From Mucilaginibacter sp. SJ (GTDB lineage Bacteria; Bacteroidota; Bacteroidia; Sphingobacteriales; Sphingobacteriaceae), in contig NZ_CP118631.1 in the NCBI RefSeq assembly GCF_028993635.1, positions 2,728,001 through 2,792,000 of the forward strand: 64,000 bases of DNA. The letters run 5' to 3'. Positions 27,421 through 46,194 of this stretch are shown piece by piece. Under the pieces are notes generated by a model. The model was not told the DNA's origin and did no database searches. It worked only from the letters and a program-made list of their open reading frames with translations. The position numbers were made by a program, and so were the translations under genes. How positions within the stretch are numbered: position 1 is the first letter of the stretch; every line of letters starts with the position of its first letter.

Positions 27421-27454
27421 AAATCCGAAATCGAACATCCGAAATCCGAAATCA
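27421..27454. repeat. TCCGAAAT-type degenerate repeat abutting a stop codon
   Basis: Units ATCCGAAA, TCGAACAT, CCGAAATC, CGAAATC run up to and include the TGA of the symporter gene (complement of 27452-27454). About 28 of 30 bases match the copy at 45731-45759. Confidence 0.7.
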
Positions 27455-28678
27455 TTCCTGTTCAACAAACTCCCCCTCACTCTTCGCAATCACAATTGTA
27501 GCAACCCCATTACCTATCACATTGGTTATAGCCCGTGCTTCCGACATAAACCTGTCAACCCCTATCAATATCGCCAAACCTTCAACCGGGATTATTTTAA
27601 TGGCCGTGAGCGTGCTGGTGAGCACTATAAAACCACTGCCGGTTACACCTGCGGCGCCTTTGGAGGTGATCATCAGTATGCCGATAATAGTTAACTCCTG
27701 CCCCAGCGAAAGCGGGATATTGAACACCTGCGCCAAAAATATCACGCACATGGAAAGGTAAATGGTAGTGCCATCCAAATTAAAAGAATACCCCGTGGGG
27801 ATCACCAAACCAACCACCGATTTGGAACAGCCAAACTTTTCCATTTTCTCCATCATGGCAGGCAAAGCCGATTCGGACGAGGAGGTGCCCAGCACGATCA
27901 GGATCTCCTGCCTGATGTATTTCAGGTACTCCCAAAGACTGAATTTAAACAACCTGCAGATAATATTCAATATCACAAATATGAACAGGAACATAGTCAG
28001 GTAAACAGAGCCCATCAACAGGGCCAGCGGTTTCAATGTTTGGATACCATATTTGCTCACCGTAAAAGCCATCCCTGCAAAGGCCCCTATCGGCGCCACC
28101 TTCATCACTATTTTCATGATATTAAAAAACACTTTCGAAAGCTTATCAAATAGCTGAATAACCGCTTCGCCACTTTTACCCATCCTGCTTAACCCAAAAC
28201 CAAACAGTATCGCAAAAAACAGGATCTGCAAAATATCGCCTTCAGCAAAAGCTTTAAACATATTTGAGGGGACTATATGGGCAATAAAATCGCCCCAGTG
28301 CATTTCGGCGGCGGCTTTTTCGTAAACGGCTAATTTGCCGGTATCCATTTTTGCAGCATGGTTTTCAAAACCTGCACCAGGCTTAATAATATTGGCTACG
28401 GTAACGCCGATGACAAGTGCGAACGTGGTTACGATCTCGAAATACAACAAAGCTTTACCGCCTACCCGGCCCACTTTTTTCATATCGCTCATGCCGGCTA
28501 TGCCCAGCACAATGGTTAAAAATATGATAGGCGCGATCAGCATAGTGATGAGGCTGATAAACGTTTTGCTGATCAGTTCGGCAGTCGGGGCAAAGCCTTT
28601 AAGGTATAAGCCGGCCACTACCCCAAGGGCAATGGCAATAAGTACCTGGAAAGTAAGGTTTGATAAGAGGCGTTTCAT
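27452..28678 (-). CDS. Dicarboxylate/amino acid:cation symporter (DAACS family)
   Basis: 408 residues of a DctA/GltP-type secondary transporter. Family signatures are visible: the Ser-rich hairpin GTSSSESALPAM, PTGYSFNLDGTTIY (TM7 NMDGT equivalent) and GAAGVTGSGFIVL (re-entrant loop 2), plus eight or more hydrophobic segments. It imports C4-dicarboxylates or glutamate/aspartate with Na+ or H+; which substrate cannot be told. The ORF extends 24 codons upstream, but that part is encoded by a CCCCCGGCCCCC repeat, so the ATG at 28678 is used. Confidence 0.92.
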   Translation of the reverse strand: MKRLLSNLTFQVLIAIALGVVAGLYLKGFAPTAELISKTFISLITMLIAPIIFLTIVLGIAGMSDMKKVGRVGGKALLYFEIVTTFALVIGVTVANIIKPGAGFENHAAKMDTGKLAVYEKAAAEMHWGDFIAHIVPSNMFKAFAEGDILQILFFAILFGFGLSRMGKSGEAVIQLFDKLSKVFFNIMKIVMKVAPIGAFAGMAFTVSKYGIQTLKPLALLMGSVYLTMFLFIFVILNIICRLFKFSLWEYLKYIRQEILIVLGTSSSESALPAMMEKMEKFGCSKSVVGLVIPTGYSFNLDGTTIYLSMCVIFLAQVFNIPLSLGQELTIIGILMITSKGAAGVTGSGFIVLTSTLTAIKIIPVEGLAILIGVDRFMSEARAITNVIGNGVATIVIAKSEGEFVEQE

Positions 28679-28682
28679 AATT

Positions 28683-28709
28683 CCCCCCGGCCCCCTAAAG
28701 GGGGAGCAA
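28683..28709. repeat. CCCCCGGCCCCCTAAAGGGGGAG repeat, in pieces
   Basis: A GC-rich palindromic repeat: CCCCCTAAAGGGGG preceded by CCCCCCGG. Related copies lie at 34151-34172, 37711-37737 and 37804-37830. Here it creates a false N-terminal extension of the symporter ORF. Confidence 0.65.
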
Positions 28710-28750
28710 CAGGTTGGGGCGGCAATATAATAAGTTATTGTTTCAGGCAC

Positions 28751-31322: not shown

Positions 31323-34148
31323 ATGGACTACCAATTTAAAGAGATAGAGCAAAAATGGCAGCAGTTTTGGGCACAAAACCAAACTTTCAAAGCCGAAGAC
31401 AAAAGCAGTAAACCCAAGTATTATGTGCTGGATATGTTCCCTTATCCATCAGGGGCCGGCCTGCACGTTGGGCACCCGCTGGGCTATATCGCTTCTGATA
31501 TTTTTGCACGCTACAAACGTTTAAAAGGTTTTAACGTGCTGCATCCCATGGGTTACGACAGCTTTGGCTTACCGGCCGAGCAATACGCCATACAAACCGG
31601 TCAGCACCCCGCTATAACTACCGAAGATAATATTGCTACATACCGCCGCCAGTTAGATCAGATCGGTTTTTCGTTCGACTGGAGCCGCGAGGTACGTACC
31701 AGTTCGCCCGATTATTATAAATGGACGCAATGGATTTTCATGCAGCTTTTCAACAGCTGGTATAATAAAGATGCCGGCAAAGCCCAGTCAATTGATCAAC
31801 TGGTTGCGCATTTTGAAACTAAAGGTTCTGCCGGTATTAATGCTGTTTGCGATGATGAAATTTTAAGTTTTACCGCCGATGAGTGGAAAGCGTTCAGCAA
31901 TGAGGAACAACAGTCCGAATTGTTAAAATACCGCCTTACTTACCTGCGCGAAAGCACCGTAAACTGGTGCCCCGCCCTTGGTACCGTATTGGCCAATGAT
32001 GAGGTAAAAGACGGCTTTAGCGAGCGCGGCGGTTACCCTGTTGAACAAAAGAAAATGACCCAATGGAGCATGCGCATCACCGCATATGCCGAAAGGTTGT
32101 TACAAGGCCTTGATACAATTGACTGGCCGGAGCCTTTGAAGGAAATGCAAAGGAACTGGATTGGTAAAAGTACCGGTGCTTCAGTAAAATTTCGAATTTC
32201 GGATTTGGGAATTCGGAATTCAGATAAATCCGAAATCGAAAATCCGACATCCGAATTCATCGAAGTATTCACCACTCGTGTTGATACTATTTTCGGTGTT
32301 ACATTCTTAGTAATTGCACCAGAGCATGAATTGGTAGCTTCATTAACTACAGCCGAGCAAAAGGCAGATATCGAAGCATACATCGCCCAAACCAAAAAGA
32401 AATCTGAACTGGACAGGATGGCTGATGCCAAAACTGTATCGGGCGCATTTACCGGCAGCTACGTGCTTAACCCATTAAACGGCCAGCCAATCCCAATCTG
32501 GATTGCTGATTATGTTTTGGCAGGTTACGGAACAGGGGCGGTTATGGCTGTACCATCGGGCGATCAGCGTGATTACCTGTTTGCAAAGCATTTTAACTTG
32601 CCGATAGTACCGATCCTCGATATTCAAAACATTGAAACCGAAGCTGATCCAACCAAAGAAGGCACCTACGTCAATTCCGACTTTATTAATGGCTTAGCTT
32701 ACAAAGAAGCAACTGCCGCCGTGGTTGCTAAACTGGAAGAAATTAACGCCGGTAAAGCTAAAGTTAACTTCAGGATGCGCGATGCCATTTTTGGTCGTCA
32801 GCGTTACTGGGGTGAGCCGGTGCCGGTTTATTTTAAAGATGGCTTGCCATATTTAATTGACGAAAGCCACCTGCCATTGTTATTGCCCGAAATTGATAAA
32901 TACCTCCCAACCGAAACCGGCGAACCACCACTGGGCCGTGCTGAGGATTGGAAATATGAAGGCGGCTTAGCTTATGAGCTAAGCACCATGCCGGGCTGGG
33001 CCGGTTCAAGCTGGTACTGGTACCGCTATATGGATGCCCAAAACGATAAAGAATTTGCATCGCGCGAGGCTATTGAATACTGGAAAGATGTTGACCTGTA
33101 CATCGGCGGCAGCGAACATGCTACCGGTCACTTGCTGTACAGTCGTTTCTGGAACAAGTTTTTGAAAGATCTTAACCTTGTTGTTGAGGAAGAACCTTTC
33201 AAAAAGCTGATTAACCAGGGCATGATCCAGGGTCGTAGTAATTTTGTTTACAGGCTGATTGACGATGAAGGCAAAGGTACCAACACCTATGTATCGCATG
33301 GATTGATCAAAGAACATAAAACTACGCCAATACACGTTGATGTTAACATTGTTGAAAACGAGGTATTAAACATTGCTAAGTTTAAACAATGGCGACCTGA
33401 ATTTGCAGATGCTGAATTTATCCTGGAAAACGGCAAATATATCTGCGGCGTTGAAGTAGAAAAAATGTCAAAACGGTATTACAACGTTGTAAATCCGGAT
33501 GATATAGCAACCCGTTTCGGCGCTGATACTTTGCGCATGTATGAAATGTTCTTAGGCCCGCTGGAACAGAGCAAACCATGGAATACCAATGGGATCGAAG
33601 GGGTGTTTAAATTCCTGCGTAAGTTCTGGAGGTTATTCCATAATGATGCCTGGGAATTTGGCGTAAGCGATGCTGTTCCGTCAAAAGCTGAGTTGAAATC
33701 ATTACATAAGATCATCAAAAAGGTTGAGGAAGATATCGAGCGCTTCTCGTTCAATACTTCAGTTTCAAGCTTTATGATCGCTGTTAATGAATTAACCGAT
33801 TTGAAATGCAACAACCGTGCGATATTGCAGGATATGGTGATCATCCTTTCACCTTATGCACCGCACATTTGCGAAGAGCTTTGGTCGCTATTAGGTAATG
33901 CCGATGGTACTTTATCATACGCGCCATTCCCTAAATTTAACGCCGGGTATTTGGTTGAGGATGAGTTTGCTTACCCGATCTCTATCAATGGCAAAATGAA
34001 AATGAACCTGAGCATCTCGCTAAGCCTTGATGTAAAAGAGATAGAAGCAGCCGTTTTAGCCAGCGCCGATGTACAAAAATACCTGGATGGCAAAACACCT
34101 AAAAAGGTGATTGTGGTAAAAGGCAGGATTGTAAATATGGTGGTTTAG
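31323..34148 (+). CDS. leuS: Leucyl-tRNA synthetase
   Basis: 941 residues, class Ia. The HIGH-like motif HVGH lies in [16 protein letters not shown] and KMSKR at residues 714-718. The CP1 editing domain is present ([27 protein letters not shown] with the conserved Asp), as is the Bacteroidota insertion near 130-190 and the anticodon-binding and C-terminal domains. It charges tRNA-Leu and edits mis-acylated norvaline or isoleucine. Odd feature: residues 291-312 ([11 protein letters not shown] ... SEF), at the entrance to CP1, are encoded by an intergenic-type repeat. A -7-like TAATTTCG is upstream. Confidence 0.98.
32193..32258. repeat. TCCGAAAT-type inverted repeat inside leuS
   Basis: A 66-bp segment, exactly 22 codons, made of units such as GAATTTCGGATTT and AAATCCGAAATCGAA that are mutually inverted. 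It closely resembles the intergenic copies at 27421-27454, 45570-45596 and 45731-45759, and it is in frame. Confidence 0.75.
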
Positions 34149-37711: not shown

Positions 37712-37830
37712 CCCCCCGGCCCCCTAAAGGGGGAGGTTAAAGAAAGACTTTATATTAAAAAGCCTGTTTCTCAATTGGAAACAGGCTTTTTCTTTTGCAC
37801 CATTCCTCCCCCTTCAGGGGGCCGGGGGGT
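37711..37830. repeat. GC-rich repeat pair flanking a shared terminator
   Basis: CCCCCCGGCCCCC with a following GGGGGAG (37711-37737) and its mirror CCTCCCCCTTCAGGGGGCC (37804-37830) face each other across the hairpin at 37757-37791, making a nested palindrome between two convergent genes. Confidence 0.7.
37757..37791. terminator. Bidirectional terminator, pruA and carbonic anhydrase 1
   Basis: AAAAAGCCTGTTTC (37757-37770) pairs with GAAACAGGCTTTTT (37778-37791). A- and T-runs serve both convergent genes. Confidence 0.88.
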
Positions 37831-38486
37831 TACTTAAATTTAAACACAGCATCCATGTTCTCATTGCTGGATGTGCTTACTTTCATATCATTAATAAGCC
37901 CTGTGCTGAGGCTGTAAACCCAGCCGTGTACCGCAAGTTCCTGCCCATTTTTCCAGGCATTTTGTACTATGGATGTTTTACAAAGGTTATTCACGTTTTC
38001 TATCACGTTCAATTCAACCAGGCGGTTACTGCGCTCAGTTTCATCGGCAATGGCGTCAAGCTCATCGGCATGTAAACGGTAAACGTCTTTGATGTGGCGC
38101 AGCCAGTTATCAATCAGGCCAAACTGGGTATTGCCCATGGCTGCATTAACACCACCGCAGCCGTAGTGGCCGGTTACAATTACATGCTTCACTTTCAATA
38201 CGTTCACGGCGTAATCGAGCACACTCAGCATGTTCATGTCCGAGTGGACAACCATGTTGGCAATGTTGCGGTGCACAAAGATCTCGCCCGGGGCGGTATT
38301 GGTGATCTGGTTGGCAGGTACGCGACTGTCGGCACAGCCTATCCAAAGTATAGGGGGCTTTTGCCCGTTAGCCAGTTTATCAAAATATTGAGGATCTTCG
38401 GCTAAAGCACCTTCAATAAATTTTTTGTTTCCTTCCAGTAAGCCTTCATAGGTAATATGGCTGGTATCATGAATTTGAGCACACAT
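37830..38486 (-). CDS. Beta-carbonic anhydrase 1
   Basis: 218 residues. Zinc-site motifs CADSRVP and HYGCGGV give the Cys-Asp/Arg dyad, His and second Cys. It interconverts CO2 and bicarbonate in the cytoplasm; no signal peptide. It is closely similar to carbonic anhydrase 2 at 41176 (shared blocks NMLSVLDYAVNVLKVKHVIV and QFGLIDNWLRHIKDVYRL), clearly a duplication. It lies 20 bp downstream of the YoaK-type membrane gene and is probably co-transcribed with it. Confidence 0.95.
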   Translation of the reverse strand: MCAQIHDTSHITYEGLLEGNKKFIEGALAEDPQYFDKLANGQKPPILWIGCADSRVPANQITNTAPGEIFVHRNIANMVVHSDMNMLSVLDYAVNVLKVKHVIVTGHYGCGGVNAAMGNTQFGLIDNWLRHIKDVYRLHADELDAIADETERSNRLVELNVIENVNNLCKTSIVQNAWKNGQELAVHGWVYSLSTGLINDMKVSTSSNENMDAVFKFK

Positions 38487-39389: not shown

Positions 39390-40910
39390 CATAGCCGTCA
39401 ATTTAAGCGAAAGCAATAAAAAAGAGTTTGTTTTTTTGAGATTGAGGGCAGAACGTAGTTTGCCCGTAAAGGCAAACTTTATGTATTTTTGCTCTCATAG
39501 TTTTATTTCTATTTTTTTGAAAGGCAGATCGGTAAAGGGTTCTGCCTTTCTCTTTGTTTACACCTAAAGATAGCATTTAATATATTGATTATCAAATAAT
39601 TATTACAATTTCCTCTGTTTTGAGCCGTCCTTTTTTCTGCTCTTTAAGCAGTTTGTAAAACGGAAGCTGTTCGAGCATATCCAGCCACTTACTGCTTAAT
39701 CCCCACAATTGCAGCCTTAGCTCCTGCATACCTGATGCTATAAAACTGTGTACCTTGAGGATACTTACCTCGCCGATCTTACCGATTGACATTGTTATCT
39801 TCCAGCTTAACATAGCCCATAATAGTTTGCTGTAAAGTGCACAGGTGATACGGTGGGTATTTCCTTTAGGCATCTGATGGATCTTCAACGATGATTTCCA
39901 GCCTTTGAACACCAACTCGATCTGCCAGCGGAGATGATAGAGTTTCCGGATCAGTTCGGCACTGTAAGTGCTATCCAGGTTGGTTACAATGAAATTAAAG
40001 CCTGCTCTGAGCTTGAAAAGCGCTGTTGTCTGATGGCCTTTCTTTTTGTTGTATTTATCGGTATGGCTTATCCGGTTATTTTTTATTTCATCACTTACCG
40101 GTTCAATAATCATCCGGACAGGTAGCTCGTCTTTTCCAATATAAACTAAACCGTCAAATGCTTTTCCTGATTTTTGTAAAGCGGTCAGGTCCAGCTCCTG
40201 GTATACTTCATTACGCAGAATGTGTATCGATGTTTTGGGGCTTAACTTATTGACAAAGAATGCCTTCTTTTCGATAATGTTGCTCATATAAGCAATATGG
40301 CTATAACCCAGGTCTCTCATGTATAATACACCCGGTCGAATCATCTGCTGATCGAGGTGGCTTTCTTTCTGGTCATTGCAATTGCCCGGTGTTAGCCTGA
40401 TATCACAACTTCCACTTTTGATCCCAAACTCAAACTGCAGGGCCGCGCCAGCTTTTATCCCGCAGCCTTTTGTCCCCGGATAAACATCCGCCATTGCCTC
40501 CGGTAAGGCAAAACGTGTGGAATCTTTGATGTTGATCTCAAGCCCTTGTATCTCTCTACAAGGCAATTCTATCGCTAAAAGTCGCTCCAGAGCCCCTTTG
40601 ATAAACTCCGTCAGCCCTTCATTATACTTTTGATGCAGAGCCTGTTTTGATATATTAAGTGAATGCCTTAACATCAGCTGCATACTCATGCCATTAAATG
40701 ATTGATTGCTGTCAAATAGCAGCGTATCCAGAAGATCTGATCCGCTTATCTTCCTTAAACGTTTGATCACTCCCGTGTTTTTAGCAAGGGTATCAAGAAA
40801 TCCATGGTCAAATAATTCCGCTTTTAAGCGTTTAAATAACCCTGTCAGGTTTGGTTGGCCGATTCTTGCTCTTAAAAATTTTTATACTACTCCTTAAATT
40901 GACGGCTATG
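39390..40910 (-). mobile_element. IS4-family insertion sequence, 1521 bp
   Basis: Perfect 18-bp terminal inverted repeats: CATAGCCGTCAATTTAAG at 39390-39407 and its complement at 40893-40910. Flanked by a 10-bp direct repeat CTCTCAAGAG and carrying one transposase gene. About 180 bp after the gene holds two hairpins (AGTTTGCC/GGCAAACT at 39457-39478 and GAAAGGCAGA/TCTGCCTTTC at 39520-39551) that may end or block transcription. The exact ends and duplication suggest a recent insertion. Confidence 0.92.
39592..40770 (-). CDS. IS4-family DDE transposase
   Basis: 392 residues counted from a GTG at 40770. Catalytic triad D83 (NIKDSTRF), D153 (YMRDLGY) and E285; the IS4 signature Y-x2-R-x3-E-x6-K is exact at Y278, R281, E285, K292 (YHLRWQIELVFKGWK). 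The reading frame stays open for 37 codons above the GTG and encodes a family-like N-terminus (ARIGQPNLTGLFKRL, then HGFLDTLAKNTG), yet contains no ATG, GTG or TTG before the upstream stop at 40882. So either translation starts at the GTG or the natural start was lost or is non-canonical. Confidence 0.9.
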   Translation of the reverse strand: MIKRLRKISGSDLLDTLLFDSNQSFNGMSMQLMLRHSLNISKQALHQKYNEGLTEFIKGALERLLAIELPCREIQGLEINIKDSTRFALPEAMADVYPGTKGCGIKAGAALQFEFGIKSGSCDIRLTPGNCNDQKESHLDQQMIRPGVLYMRDLGYSHIAYMSNIIEKKAFFVNKLSPKTSIHILRNEVYQELDLTALQKSGKAFDGLVYIGKDELPVRMIIEPVSDEIKNNRISHTDKYNKKKGHQTTALFKLRAGFNFIVTNLDSTYSAELIRKLYHLRWQIELVFKGWKSSLKIHQMPKGNTHRITCALYSKLLWAMLSWKITMSIGKIGEVSILKVHSFIASGMQELRLQLWGLSSKWLDMLEQLPFYKLLKEQKKGRLKTEEIVIII

Positions 40911-41175: not shown

Positions 41176-41892
41176 TTAGTGTGCAGCTACAGCTTCAACA
41201 TCAAGCTCATACACATAGCCTAAATTGTGCGGGCTGCTGCTGGTCACTTTCAGATCTTTAACCAGGCCGCTGCCCAAATCAATTACCCAACCGTGCACTT
41301 CAAGGTCATGACGTTCTTTCCAGGCATTTTGAATGATGGTGGTTTTGCACAGGTTATATACCTGCTCGGTAACGTTAAGCTCAACCAGGCGGTTAACTTT
41401 GGTTGTTTCGTCGGTAATGCGGTCAAGCTCATGGCTGTGTAAGCGGTAAACATCTTTAATATGGCGCAGCCAGTTATCAATTAAGCCAAATTGTTTGTTG
41501 CTCATAGCGGCAGCGACACCGCCGCAACCATAATGACCGGCAACAATAACGTGTTTTACTTTAAGCACGTTCACTGCATAATCAAGCACGCTCAGCATGT
41601 TCATATCCGAGTGTGCGCATACGTTGGCAATGTTACGGTGTACAAACACTTCGCCGGGCTTGGTACCGGTTACTTCGTTAGCCGGAACACGACTGTCTGA
41701 GCAGCCTATCCACAGTACTTCAGGGCTTTGACCTTTGGCCAGGTTCTTAAAATACTCGCTATCCTCGGCAAGTTTACGCTCAACCCAGGCGGCGTTGTTT
41801 TTAATTAGAGCGCTGTAACTGCTTGACTGGACCAGTTTAATATTGTTTGTATCTATTACGGCTTTGCCGTTTGTTTTTTCTTGTGTTGACAT
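41176..41892 (-). CDS. Beta-carbonic anhydrase 2
   Basis: 238 residues with CSDSRVP and HYGCGGV zinc motifs. It has an ~20-residue longer N-terminus than carbonic anhydrase 1 (polar, no signal peptide). It lies 14 bp downstream of a SulP transporter, a frequent operon in which the carbonic anhydrase supplies or consumes the bicarbonate moved by the transporter. Conversion of CO2 to bicarbonate could feed biotin-dependent carboxylases such as the acyl-CoA carboxylase at 44031 (inference). Confidence 0.95.
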   Translation of the reverse strand: MSTQEKTNGKAVIDTNNIKLVQSSSYSALIKNNAAWVERKLAEDSEYFKNLAKGQSPEVLWIGCSDSRVPANEVTGTKPGEVFVHRNIANVCAHSDMNMLSVLDYAVNVLKVKHVIVAGHYGCGGVAAAMSNKQFGLIDNWLRHIKDVYRLHSHELDRITDETTKVNRLVELNVTEQVYNLCKTTIIQNAWKERHDLEVHGWVIDLGSGLVKDLKVTSSSPHNLGYVYELDVEAVAAH

Positions 41893-44030: not shown

Positions 44031-45572
44031 GTGGATAAAAAGCTTGATCTGTTAAGGCTAAAACGTCATGAAGCCATGCAGGGCGGAGGCCCGGTACGTA
44101 TTGAAAGTCAGCATAAAAAAGGAAAATTAACGGCACGTGAACGTCTGCATTTTTTATTGGATGAAGGTTCGTTCCAGGAGATAGGGATGCTGGTTACCCA
44201 CCGCTCCATTGATTTTGGCATGGAGAAAGAAAAATATCCCGGCGATGGCGTTGTTACAGGTTATGGCACCATAAACGGGCGGCTCACTTATGTATTTTCC
44301 CAGGATTTTACAGTGTTCGGCGGCTCGCTTTCCGAAACCCATGCCGAAAAGATCTGCAAGATCATGGATCTCGCCCTTAAGAACGGCGCTCCCCTTATCG
44401 GCCTCAATGATTCGGGCGGAGCACGCATCCAGGAGGGTGTGGTATCCCTTGGCGGTTATGCCGATATCTTTTATCGCAATACCATGGCATCCGGCGTTAT
44501 CCCGCAAATCTCGGCCATTATGGGCCCATGTGCAGGCGGCGCTGTTTACTCGCCCGCCATTACCGATTTTATTTTAATGGTTGAGCATACCTCATATATG
44601 TTTGTTACCGGGCCTAACGTAGTAAAAACAGTTACCCATGAAGTGGTAACTTCCGAAGAGCTGGGCGGCGCCAACACCCACGCCAGCAAATCAGGCGTTA
44701 CGCATTTTGCCTGTGCCAATGAAATAGCCGCCATTCAGCATATCAAAAGCCTGCTGAGCTATATGCCTCAAAATTGTGAGGATAAAGCTCCTGCCGCTCC
44801 CTACGAAAACGGCGACGAGCTTAGGCCCGAGTTAAACACCATCCTGCCATCAATAGCCTCACAACCCTATGATATCCGCGAGGTTATTGACCATATCATC
44901 GATAAAGCTTCGTTTTTGGAAGTGCATAAAGATTTTGCCGAAAACATTGTGGTAGGCTTCGCGCGCCTGGCAGGCCGCAGCATTGGCATTGTGGCCAATC
45001 AGCCCGCTTTTTTGGCCGGGGTACTGGATATTCACTCATCAACCAAGGCTGCCCGTTTTGTGCGCTTTTGCGATTCCTTCAACATTCCGCTGCTGGTGTT
45101 TGAAGATGTTCCCGGCTTTTTGCCGGGTACCGACCAGGAATGGAATGCCATTATCACCAATGGCGCTAAACTATTATATGCTTTTTGTGAGGCCACCGTT
45201 CCCCGCGTTACGGTGATCACCCGCAAAGCCTATGGTGGTGCTTATGATGTAATGAACTCCAAACACATCGGTGCCGATATGAATTTTGCATGGCCGTCGG
45301 CCGAAATTGCTGTGATGGGCGCCAAAGGTGCCGCCGAAATCATTTTTAAACGGGAGATCACGAAGGCCGAAGATCATGAAGCCAAGTGGCTGGAGATGGA
45401 ACAACTATATTCGGATACTTTTGCCAACCCTTACCGCGCTGCCGAACGCGGATTTATCGACGAAGTAATTGAACCCGCCGAAACGCGCATTAAACTGATT
45501 GCGGCATTTAAAATGCTGGAAAATAAAGTAGTTAACAACCCGAGGAAAAAGCACGGGAATATTCCGCTTTGA
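44031..45572 (+). CDS. Acyl-CoA carboxylase beta (carboxyltransferase) subunit
   Basis: 513 residues from a GTG start, standard length for propionyl-CoA or methylmalonyl-CoA carboxyltransferase. Crotonase-type halves carry the acyl-CoA oxyanion motif GGARIQEGV and the carboxybiotin-side [12 protein letters not shown]; the terminal block [10 protein letters not shown] is characteristic. It transfers CO2 from carboxybiotin to propionyl-CoA (or runs as a methylmalonyl-CoA decarboxylase). Biotin carboxylase and BCCP partners are not in the window. Its TGA stop is the first codon of a degenerate repeat. Confidence 0.93.
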
Positions 45573-45759
45573 TTTGGGATTTTCGATTTCGGATTTATTT
45601 TCTTTTTTATTGTAGATGCCGTAATTGCCTTTCTGGCTGTTTATGGCGTAAGTATTGTGCGGCCGCCGGTGCTGTGATTACTTGTGCCTTCGGCTATAGA
45701 AAATCAGATTTGTTTACCTTTGCGTTTCTAATTCCGAAATCGAACATCCGAAATCCGCA
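45570..45759. repeat. TCCGAAAT-type inverted arms filling the gap between two genes
   Basis: The left arm (45570-45596: TGATTTGGGATTTTCGATTT...) begins with the stop codon of the carboxylase gene; the right arm (45731-45759: TTCCGAAATCGAACATCC...) ends on the base before the ATG of the GNAT gene. The arms are reverse complements in kind. Between them is the GNAT promoter. Confidence 0.75.
45715..45722 (+). promoter_or_regulatory. -7 box of GNAT gene 45760
   Basis: TACCTTTG is an exact TAnnTTTG match 37 nt before the ATG. The repeat arm then forms the 5' untranslated region. Confidence 0.55.
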
Positions 45760-46194
45760 ATGAAAAACATCTCTATCGAACAAATCCGTCCGGAGCTTAC
45801 CTGGCGGTTAAGGCAACGTATCTTATATCCCGAAAGCAAGCTTTATGAAATGGAGATGGAGGAGGATAACCAAGGCTATCACTTTGCTGCTTTTAAAGAT
45901 AATCATATCATAGCGGTAGTATCCCTTTTTAATAAAGGAAACGACTGGCAGTTTCGCAAATTTGCTGTTGATCAATCAGTTCAAAAAATGGGCCTCGGTA
46001 AAGCGATGCTGGAGCATATAACCGATTTTGCCCTTACCAATGGAGGTGTGTTGTTATGGTGTAATGCCCGGGTATCGGCCATTGGTTTCTATTTAAAACA
46101 TGGCTTCACACATACCGGCAAGCTTTTTTCAAAAAACGGCTTCGACTATGAGATCCTCGAAAAACAACTTATTCCTTCTCCGGGTCAGCAATAA
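45760..46194 (+). CDS. GNAT-family N-acetyltransferase
   Basis: 144 residues with the GNAT acetyl-CoA motif: RKFAVDQSVQKMGLGKAMLEHI (Q-x-x-G-x-G/A loop as QKMGLGKA), then LLWCNARVSAIGFYLKHGF. Single-domain cytoplasmic acyltransferase; substrate unknown. Its ATG directly follows a repeat arm. Confidence 0.9.
   Translation: MKNISIEQIRPELTWRLRQRILYPESKLYEMEMEEDNQGYHFAAFKDNHIIAVVSLFNKGNDWQFRKFAVDQSVQKMGLGKAMLEHITDFALTNGGVLLWCNARVSAIGFYLKHGFTHTGKLFSKNGFDYEILEKQLIPSPGQQ

Follow-up and report, generated by a model that had tools for sequence, protein, structure and literature searches.

How does a repeat that is dispersed mainly between genes come to code for part of an essential enzyme? The question is raised by the leucyl-tRNA synthetase (LeuRS) gene of Mucilaginibacter sp. 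SJ, which lies in a 64,000-nucleotide stretch of contig NZ_CP118631.1 (positions 2,728,001 to 2,792,000; hereafter the window) and contains an inverted repeat of the TCCGAAAT family. The segment is probably an arms-only copy of a small mobile element, whose longer form carries the gene of a 23S rRNA intervening-sequence protein (IVP), captured in frame by a tolerant LeuRS loop. Direct evidence consists of a copy of a dispersed repeat, its young age, a recurrently used site, IVP genes bracketed by such arms, and the covariation of protein and arms; the mobility of the element is inferred. The in-frame, stop-free state of the segment argues for translation of the loop. The gene has the following features.

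31323..34148, plus strand: leucyl-tRNA synthetase gene, 941 residues, with the editing domain PF13603, PF00133 and PF08264
32189..32257, plus strand: in-frame inverted repeat of the TCCGAAAT family, with left arm 32189–32220, a 5-bp centre and right arm 32226–32257
32193..32258, plus strand: LeuRS codons 291–312, site 1 of length variation, the loop directly before FTTR
32937..32978, plus strand: LeuRS site 2 (residues 539–552), insert-free in the window and filled in relatives by heptamers, by palindromes or by an entire DUF559 nuclease domain

The repeat arms occupied the gap between the conserved stretches ASVKF and IEVFTTR, within the editing domain, which spanned residues 277–471 in a Pfam scan. 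In the TCCGAAAT family the arms were composed of 7-bp units, one of which, the odd TCGAACA, always stood at the same place; the consensus of the right arm was AAATCCGAAATCGAACATCCGAAATCCGAAAT. The sequence-only reading had placed the repeat at 32193–32258, inside LeuRS; its presence there was confirmed by matches in the window, matches in the rest of the genome and a control on repeat period. Codons 291–312 were indeed repeat-derived, whereas the exact extent of 66 bp had to be corrected, as the repeat started about 4 bp earlier, at 32189. The loop, which was presumed in that reading to be a surface linker, was not confirmed as such here, the AlphaFold models being poor (two jobs, mean pLDDT 49 and 41). 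The first job, as a hint only, gave strands at residues 285–292 and 312–317 with a low-confidence loop between them. The closest solved structure to the window protein was the LeuRS 7nua (E 8.6e-178). Elsewhere in the gene, at 33462–33485, the window LeuRS had KMSKRYYN where the consensus of 30 sequences had KMSKSKFN.

Three further arms of the family were located in the window, in agreement with the copies first named at 27421, 45570 and 45731.

27421..27452, plus strand: right arm, 32/32 to the consensus, abutting the end of the minus-strand gene 27452–28750
45565..45596, plus strand: left arm, 25/32 to the consensus, overlapping the end of the gene 44031–45572
45730..45761, plus strand: right arm, abutting the start of the gene at 45760

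The LeuRS right arm (32226) was 91% identical to the 27421 copy over 35 nt, and the 45730 copy was 89% identical to the same arm. When the entire genome, a single contig of 6.82 Mb, was searched with a 151-bp query around the LeuRS segment and 40 of 82 candidates were scored, at least 50 matches were obtained including the query itself, the best other match having an E value of 1.8e-9. Arrays were then counted in 847 kb of the genome, composed of the window and 40 stretches, 35 of which had been picked for holding a match. A lag of 7 gave 19 arrays at 22/28, and every other lag from 4 to 23 gave 0–8. The same 847 kb contained 48 arm groups, five of them inside crude open reading frame (ORF) calls. 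The in-gene position was clear for LeuRS and for L143, a gene of the VitK2_biosynth family; L139 and L144 were candidates only, and the arm group of L119 preceded the point at which its frame, called too long, probably starts. Among 65 arms at 26/32 or better, six lay within ORFs. For the arms outside ORFs, the left-hand ORF ended at most 10 bp from the left arm in 16 of 26 cases, and the right-hand ORF began at most 10 bp from the right arm in 22 of 33. Because the arm ends sit so close to the adjoining ORFs, the inverted heptamer arrays frame many intergenic gaps. The repeat is thus dispersed and mostly intergenic, as had been noted from the letters, and yet it stands in frame inside an essential gene.

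The second clear case, L143:9807-9881, was a TCCGAAAT element that formed part of the reading frame of a menaquinone-biosynthesis gene, and L296, from another species, appeared by eye to be the same kind of gene. The idea that the full-length form with a short centre is limited to genes was rejected from the copies fetched in other genomes: 13 of 18 lay outside any open frame of at least 100 residues, four lay in doubtful frames of 112–139 residues, and one was in L296 (328 residues). Two other heptamer arrays were observed, namely in-frame (TCTCAAA) heptamers at residue 180 of a class-III aminotransferase (L121:2227-2265) and an intergenic array of about 24 copies of TTTCACC (L119:1401-1572).

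The LeuRS genes of relatives were compared in order to see what occupies the same place, a check that the sequence-only reading had proposed. Named genomes yielded 80 loci in one scan, and a genus search covered 61 genomes; together, 139 LeuRS loci (some genomes twice) gave 115 distinct proteins, of which 109 were aligned and six dropped as short or without the start motif. Six relatives (L041, L011, L012, L039, L051, and L067) were 93–97% identical to the window LeuRS, and up to 98% outside the variable sites, and all carried a different loop, PIDKSGHNAAL, which was 7 residues shorter. In the tree, the window gene was sister to L041, L011, L012, L039, and L051 (SH-aLRT 95, six rows), with L067 outside (97). 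As all six nearest relatives have the other loop, the window copy is young. A peptide shared across the family with normal codon variation, the outcome that would have spoken against an insertion, was looked for and was not found.

Measured between NWIGKS and F/YTTR, a pair of motifs that missed the loop in 11 of 110 loci, the loop was 18–66 residues long, with 32 in the window. Its DNA was composed of arrays of (ATTTCGG), (AGAGTCA), (ACTCAAG), (ACTCACC), (GACTTCG), (ACTCAAA), and others, or of a palindrome of the kind CTCACC...CTCTCCAAAGGAGAGG...GGTGAGG, amounting by eye to about 10 different repeat contents. A lag-7 score of at least 16/21 was reached by 23 of the 109 loops, with several different units, and by none of the 109 at lags 4, 5, 6, 8, 9, 10, 11, and 13. 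Control windows of the same length elsewhere in the same genes reached it at lag 7 in 4 of 3847 cases, all at the second site near residue 546. Hand-made patterns found the palindrome in 18 further loops.

Parsimony required at least 35 changes among four loop states, with at least 7 for TCCGAAAT and at least 15 for the palindrome, on a quick tree (109 rows, 816 columns without the variable sites) that had 31 open forks and hand-made loop classes. These classes left 44 of the 109 rows unclassed (OTH). Six OTH rows and L091 (classed MIN) had a lag-7 score of at least 16 and were counted as HEPother on the tree; L179 looked palindromic and was yet counted as none, as were three ACTCACC rows at 15/21, and L182 was called palindromic on weak grounds. 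The LeuRS loop is a capture hot spot for varied repeats. The single invasion first proposed therefore becomes one of many events at the same site, with in-frame capture being tolerated, and what had been described as an intergenic repeat invading the gene is not a clean 66-bp insertion but the replacement of a variable-length loop by an in-frame dispersed repeat.

Other loop contents were dispersed as well. Four loops were searched against the same 12 genomes, with at most 40 candidates scored per genome and with the loop-flanking LeuRS codons included in the tallies. At E ≤0.01, and counting the loop itself, the matches in the genome of each loop numbered 13 (AGAGTCA), 4 (ACTCACC), 62 (TCCGAAAT, both strands), and 57 (palindrome). 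The genomes with a match were 11, 10, 12, and 11 of 12, respectively, some through LeuRS codons alone; the sole ACTCACC match in G041 was to the flanking LeuRS codons of the query. Ideal TCCGAAA arrays were free of stop codons on both strands, and arrays of AGAGTCA, ACTCAAG, ACTCACC, and ACTCAAA were stop-free only on the strand used in LeuRS, as expected if an open frame is selected. A third site of length variation was observed at residues 640–672 (window 33240–33338), with a length of 33 residues in the window that rose to as many as 97 in relatives; the sequence was frequently AT-rich and diverged rapidly. It was set aside as a capture site, as inserts of at least 55 residues were by eye unlike the repeats.

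The source of the arms was pointed to by the genome of the window itself (G000). At about G000:C1:2259.9-2260.4 kb, an ORF of PF05635, the IVP family (E 1.2e-17), lay between two TCCGAAAT arms. In this IVP element (L197) the arms matched each other at 23/24 and the right arm matched the consensus at 32/32. The repeat first described as intergenic therefore seems to form the terminus of an IVP-coding element. All six PF05635 genes of the genome were flanked by inverted repeats of at least 21/24, each with its own unit, one having the TCCGAAAT arms. Inverted repeats reached 19/24 at 31 of 36 IVP loci of the genus vs 6 of 311 control ORFs of the window genome, at 26 of 30 IVP loci of five further genomes (L223, common to this set and the genus set, failed in both), and at 20 of 30 IVP loci across the phylum vs 4 of 129 swapped flank pairs. 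PF05635 was present in 60 of 61 genus genomes (E 0.001) and in 116 of 148 Bacteroidota genomes at the same E value, 113 of them above the family cut-off.

The similarity of the IVP proteins was correlated with that of their arms (Spearman 0.417, reached in 0 of 1000 permutations; 49 of 65 loci), and in 32 of 49 cases a protein and its nearest relative had an arm family in common, vs 6.4% of all pairs. This covariation fits an enzyme that acts on its own ends; shared descent of the whole unit also gives it. One TCCGAAAT-armed IVP lineage (72% identical) was located in different gene gaps of two species, with pyrR/pyrB-like flanks in G000 and nuoC/nuoD-like flanks in G019 (names by eye).

A gene-bearing element would accordingly be composed of a left 7-bp array, a four-helix-bundle IVP gene (PF05635), and the same array inverted. 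The IVP may act on its arms and so move the element and, in trans, arms-only copies. Insertion into DNA would once have taken this IVP route. Selection would then retain only those copies that are in frame, free of stops, in an unconstrained loop, and harmless to the fold, and finished loops could pass between species through recombination in the conserved flanks.

Several observations weigh against this proposal. The two clear in-gene TCCGAAAT copies in 847 kb, with two further candidates, mean that capture is rare outside LeuRS. Swapped flanks of the genus also reached 19/24 in 21 of 185 pairs, since loci have arm families in common. The score of 20/28 at lag 7 that 20 of 36 IVP loci attained was also attained by 37 of 311 control ORFs, whose stretches were enriched for the repeat, and some IVP arms had a period of 8. 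The correlation excluded 16 of 65 IVP loci, which had no motif ORF or no 19/24 inverted repeat. The link between a loop and an IVP of the same genome was found only in the genome of the window: among the IVP loci fetched in G041, G022, G004, G020, and G019 (30 of 36 matches), none had arms like the LeuRS loop of its own genome, the best likeness being 14, 16, 17, 16, and 15 of 21, respectively. Across genomes a likeness of 18–20/21 was reached between the AGAGTCA loop of G041 and the IVPs of G022 and G004, and between TCCGAAAT and an IVP of G019. No movement was observed, in the sense of an empty-site pair, a target duplication, or a junction demonstrated for an IVP element. We know of no enzyme activity for the IVP. 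The production of the corresponding Coxiella protein, S23p, is doubted in a passage of PMC4990558. Moreover, the loop centre of the window is common to other LeuRS loops and not to the dispersed copies, and direct insertion from an intergenic copy in the window lineage is not shown.

This last point bears on a narrower explanation, in which LeuRS genes exchange the loop solely among themselves: the window copy would have come from a different Mucilaginibacter through homologous recombination, after a single old capture and with no element active at LeuRS now. The shared centre GGAATTCAGATAAATCCGAAAT was found at 19/22 or better in the LeuRS loops of several species and otherwise, in 2.1 Mb, in one IVP element only. 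As the centre is missing from the dispersed copies examined, with the exception of that IVP element at 19/22, the loop may come from another LeuRS, and the window copy need not derive directly from an intergenic one. Compared between pairs of equal length only, the TCCGAAAT loops of the window, L040, L045, L050, and L079 had a DNA identity of 0.86–0.91 and a third-position identity of 0.78–0.91, vs 0.52–0.60 at third positions outside the loop. The close pair L050–L079 had 0.99 over the loop and 1.00 at its third positions vs 0.75 elsewhere. The excess was lower for L105 (0.78–0.86 vs 0.49–0.54), barely present for L172 (0.62–0.70 vs 0.51–0.59), and reversed for L047–L080 (0.67 vs 0.73). Because loop identity far exceeds third-position identity elsewhere, the loop itself probably moves between species, via recombination in the conserved flanks; no donor of a transferred loop was identified. 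Exchange from a single old capture is nevertheless unlikely as the whole account, since about 10 repeat contents and at least 35 changes need many captures, and the second site likewise.

Growth in place by slippage from a heptamer seed, with the likeness due to a common 7-bp slippage bias, is far less probable. PMC4679880 tells of a previous survey in which units of 7 bp outnumbered every other class in most genomes, and the array of about 24 TTTCACC copies in L119 demonstrates that long arrays exist. Slippage is already disfavoured by the fixed consensus, in which the odd unit TCGAACA keeps a constant place and which is matched at 32/32 in several copies; in addition, both arms are present in inverted order, and 7-bp slippage would break the frame.

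Equally improbable is that an RNA function, such as a hairpin for mRNA stability or processing, keeps the repeat in LeuRS. Six stem pairs changed on both sides in eight loops, a count that was reached by 3 of 500 shuffles and fell to 0–3 when the pairing was slid, and five of the eight loops (L040, L045, L050, L105, and L065) formed strong hairpins with z values of −3.7 to −5.3. The value was −2.6 for L047, but only −1.5 for the window, and L172 was unfolded (0.6). The covariation means either that the hairpin is kept or that one arm was copied from the other: arm-to-arm copying of DNA gives the same pattern, and kinship alone can exceed such shuffles. The loop is also occupied by other types of repeat. 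No known RNA family was found at the loop among matches at E ≤0.1 in 26000–47000; seven weak matches elsewhere were all below gathering scores. With its weak hairpin, the window copy of the repeat is partly decayed.

The least probable alternative, that the loop peptide itself is selected for editing or for tRNA or partner binding and that the DNA likeness is coincidental, has on its side a loop open in 99 of 110 loci (a weak point, since only stop-free stretches were read) and is opposed by loops of 18–66 residues with unrelated sequences among close relatives, whose length, sequence, and tree ruled out an old conserved peptide, and by the genome matches and lag-7 control, which ruled out chance likeness.

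Inserts of another kind were present at site 2. Five Mucilaginibacter species (L172, L173, L174, L179, and L183) had a whole DUF559 domain in frame between linkers coded by palindromes. PF04480 matched at all five site-2 places, with E 2.7e-32 for the L172 insert, and also in an Lhr helicase (9.2e-35), a methylmalonyl-CoA mutase (4.5e-34), and TruB (9e-31); further hosts by Pfam were a histidine-biosynthesis protein (HisF by eye) and a glutamine amidotransferase (HisH by eye). The window genome had five DUF559 domains, one in frame in an Lhr-type helicase, one sharing an open frame with HisF, and three standalone. The domain in the helicase (L188, G000:C1:4237807-4238124) lay between a DEWH and a SAT stretch, which we take to be helicase motifs, and was flanked by palindromic repeats. 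DUF559 was found in 54 of 61 genus genomes, and 47 of 146 genus matches lay in open frames of at least 330 residues by a hand count that excluded four weak matches (E ~1e-4) in frames of 1499–1572 residues. Inverted repeats of at least 19/24 flanked 31 of 34 DUF559 loci, and none of 170 shuffled flanks had one. The idea that DUF559 moves the heptamer family was rejected, since the best repeats at these 34 loci were by eye palindromic and not heptameric (lag 7 was not tested). The combination of palindrome and DUF559 is a second, parallel class, and not the class of the window loop. At the same site, L181 had a different insert, which made the site about 130 residues longer than in the window and had no significant Pfam match.

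The preferred reading was compared with known systems. Rickettsia palindromic elements are short inverted repeats of about 150 bp in ten families, located between genes and in frame in unrelated protein genes, according to the relevant passages of PMC10969869. The window repeat resembles them in having intergenic copies as well as an in-frame copy within a protein gene. It differs, by description and not by comparison of sequences, in its length of 69 bp, its 7-bp period, and its phylum; moreover, one loop is reused by different repeats, and the arms are linked to IVP or DUF559 genes.

The 23S rRNA intervening sequence (IVS) of Coxiella has two to three heptameric repeats just before the S23p gene, in a number that varies between strains, and an inverted-repeat stem, and the origin of such sequences is stated as unclear in the part of PMC4990558 that treats them. 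Shared with the present elements are a PF05635-type gene between inverted repeats, adjoining heptamers (in Coxiella), and insertion into an essential product. The elements described here differ in lying between protein genes, with arms-only copies in a protein gene that are presumably translated and not cut out. As for the marks of an IVS, the window copy lies in leuS and not in 23S rRNA, and it has no room for an S23p/IVP gene, which is present in the same-armed element at G000:C1:2259985; an inverted-repeat stem bounds the insert, with an RNA fold that is weak for the window copy.

Miniature inverted-repeat transposable elements (MITEs) are likewise dispersed, non-autonomous inverted repeats that have the ends of a longer gene-bearing element, and the window copy does share its terminal inverted repeats with a gene-bearing element of the same genome. 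Its arms are, unlike those of MITEs, tandem heptamers. The DUF559 inserts of relatives resemble homing-endonuclease elements and inteins, in that a nuclease-like domain stands in frame in conserved enzymes at repeated sites. The DUF559 insert also gave a weaker match to REase_MTES_1575, below the cut-off. In contrast to inteins, the six DUF559-bearing proteins or inserts scanned with Pfam showed no protein-splicing domain, the flanks are palindromic, and the host protein would keep the insert. Heptanucleotide direct repeats such as TAACTGA are described for Beggiatoaceae, and intergenic 7-bp arrays for five Bacteroidetes as well, in passages of PMC4679880. The present arrays are similar in being intergenic with 7-bp units, whereas those of Beggiatoaceae are, in the same passages, arrays in direct orientation that precede genes, and no connection to IVP is mentioned there. 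In the part of PMC5524665 concerned, the four helix bundle protein is merely listed in a table. No report was found in the open-licence literature that links heptamer arms to the IVP genes of Bacteroidota, places repeats in the LeuRS loop as a hot spot, or describes DUF559 between palindromes.

A wider proposal, which we hold tentatively and at little short of even confidence, is that the heptamer repeats of Bacteroidota and the 23S rRNA IVS form one mobile class, whose IVP would recognise its own arms, and that this class, together with the palindrome-DUF559 class, repeatedly writes, replaces, and spreads loops in essential proteins, with LeuRS as a hot spot whose loop is itself mobile between species. 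In-frame selfish palindromes are known from Rickettsia, and here a soil genus displays the process in a single place of an essential enzyme, where the many types of repeat allow the rules of tolerance to be read from nature. The IVP, a protein of unknown role, gains a testable job, that of recognising the heptamer arms of its own element, and with an element that is common between protein genes the origin of the 23S rRNA IVS would become open to test.

Two further observations were made in the window. A second dispersed family of 38–85 bp (GGGCGTTGCC...CTGCAGGCATTACGCTCATTGGCCGGTATCC) was present at 1556, 27197, and 56413. The genes at 37830–38486 and 41176–41892 were similar to each other (76% over 300 nt) and flanked an ORF at 39592–40770 that was by eye transposase-like.

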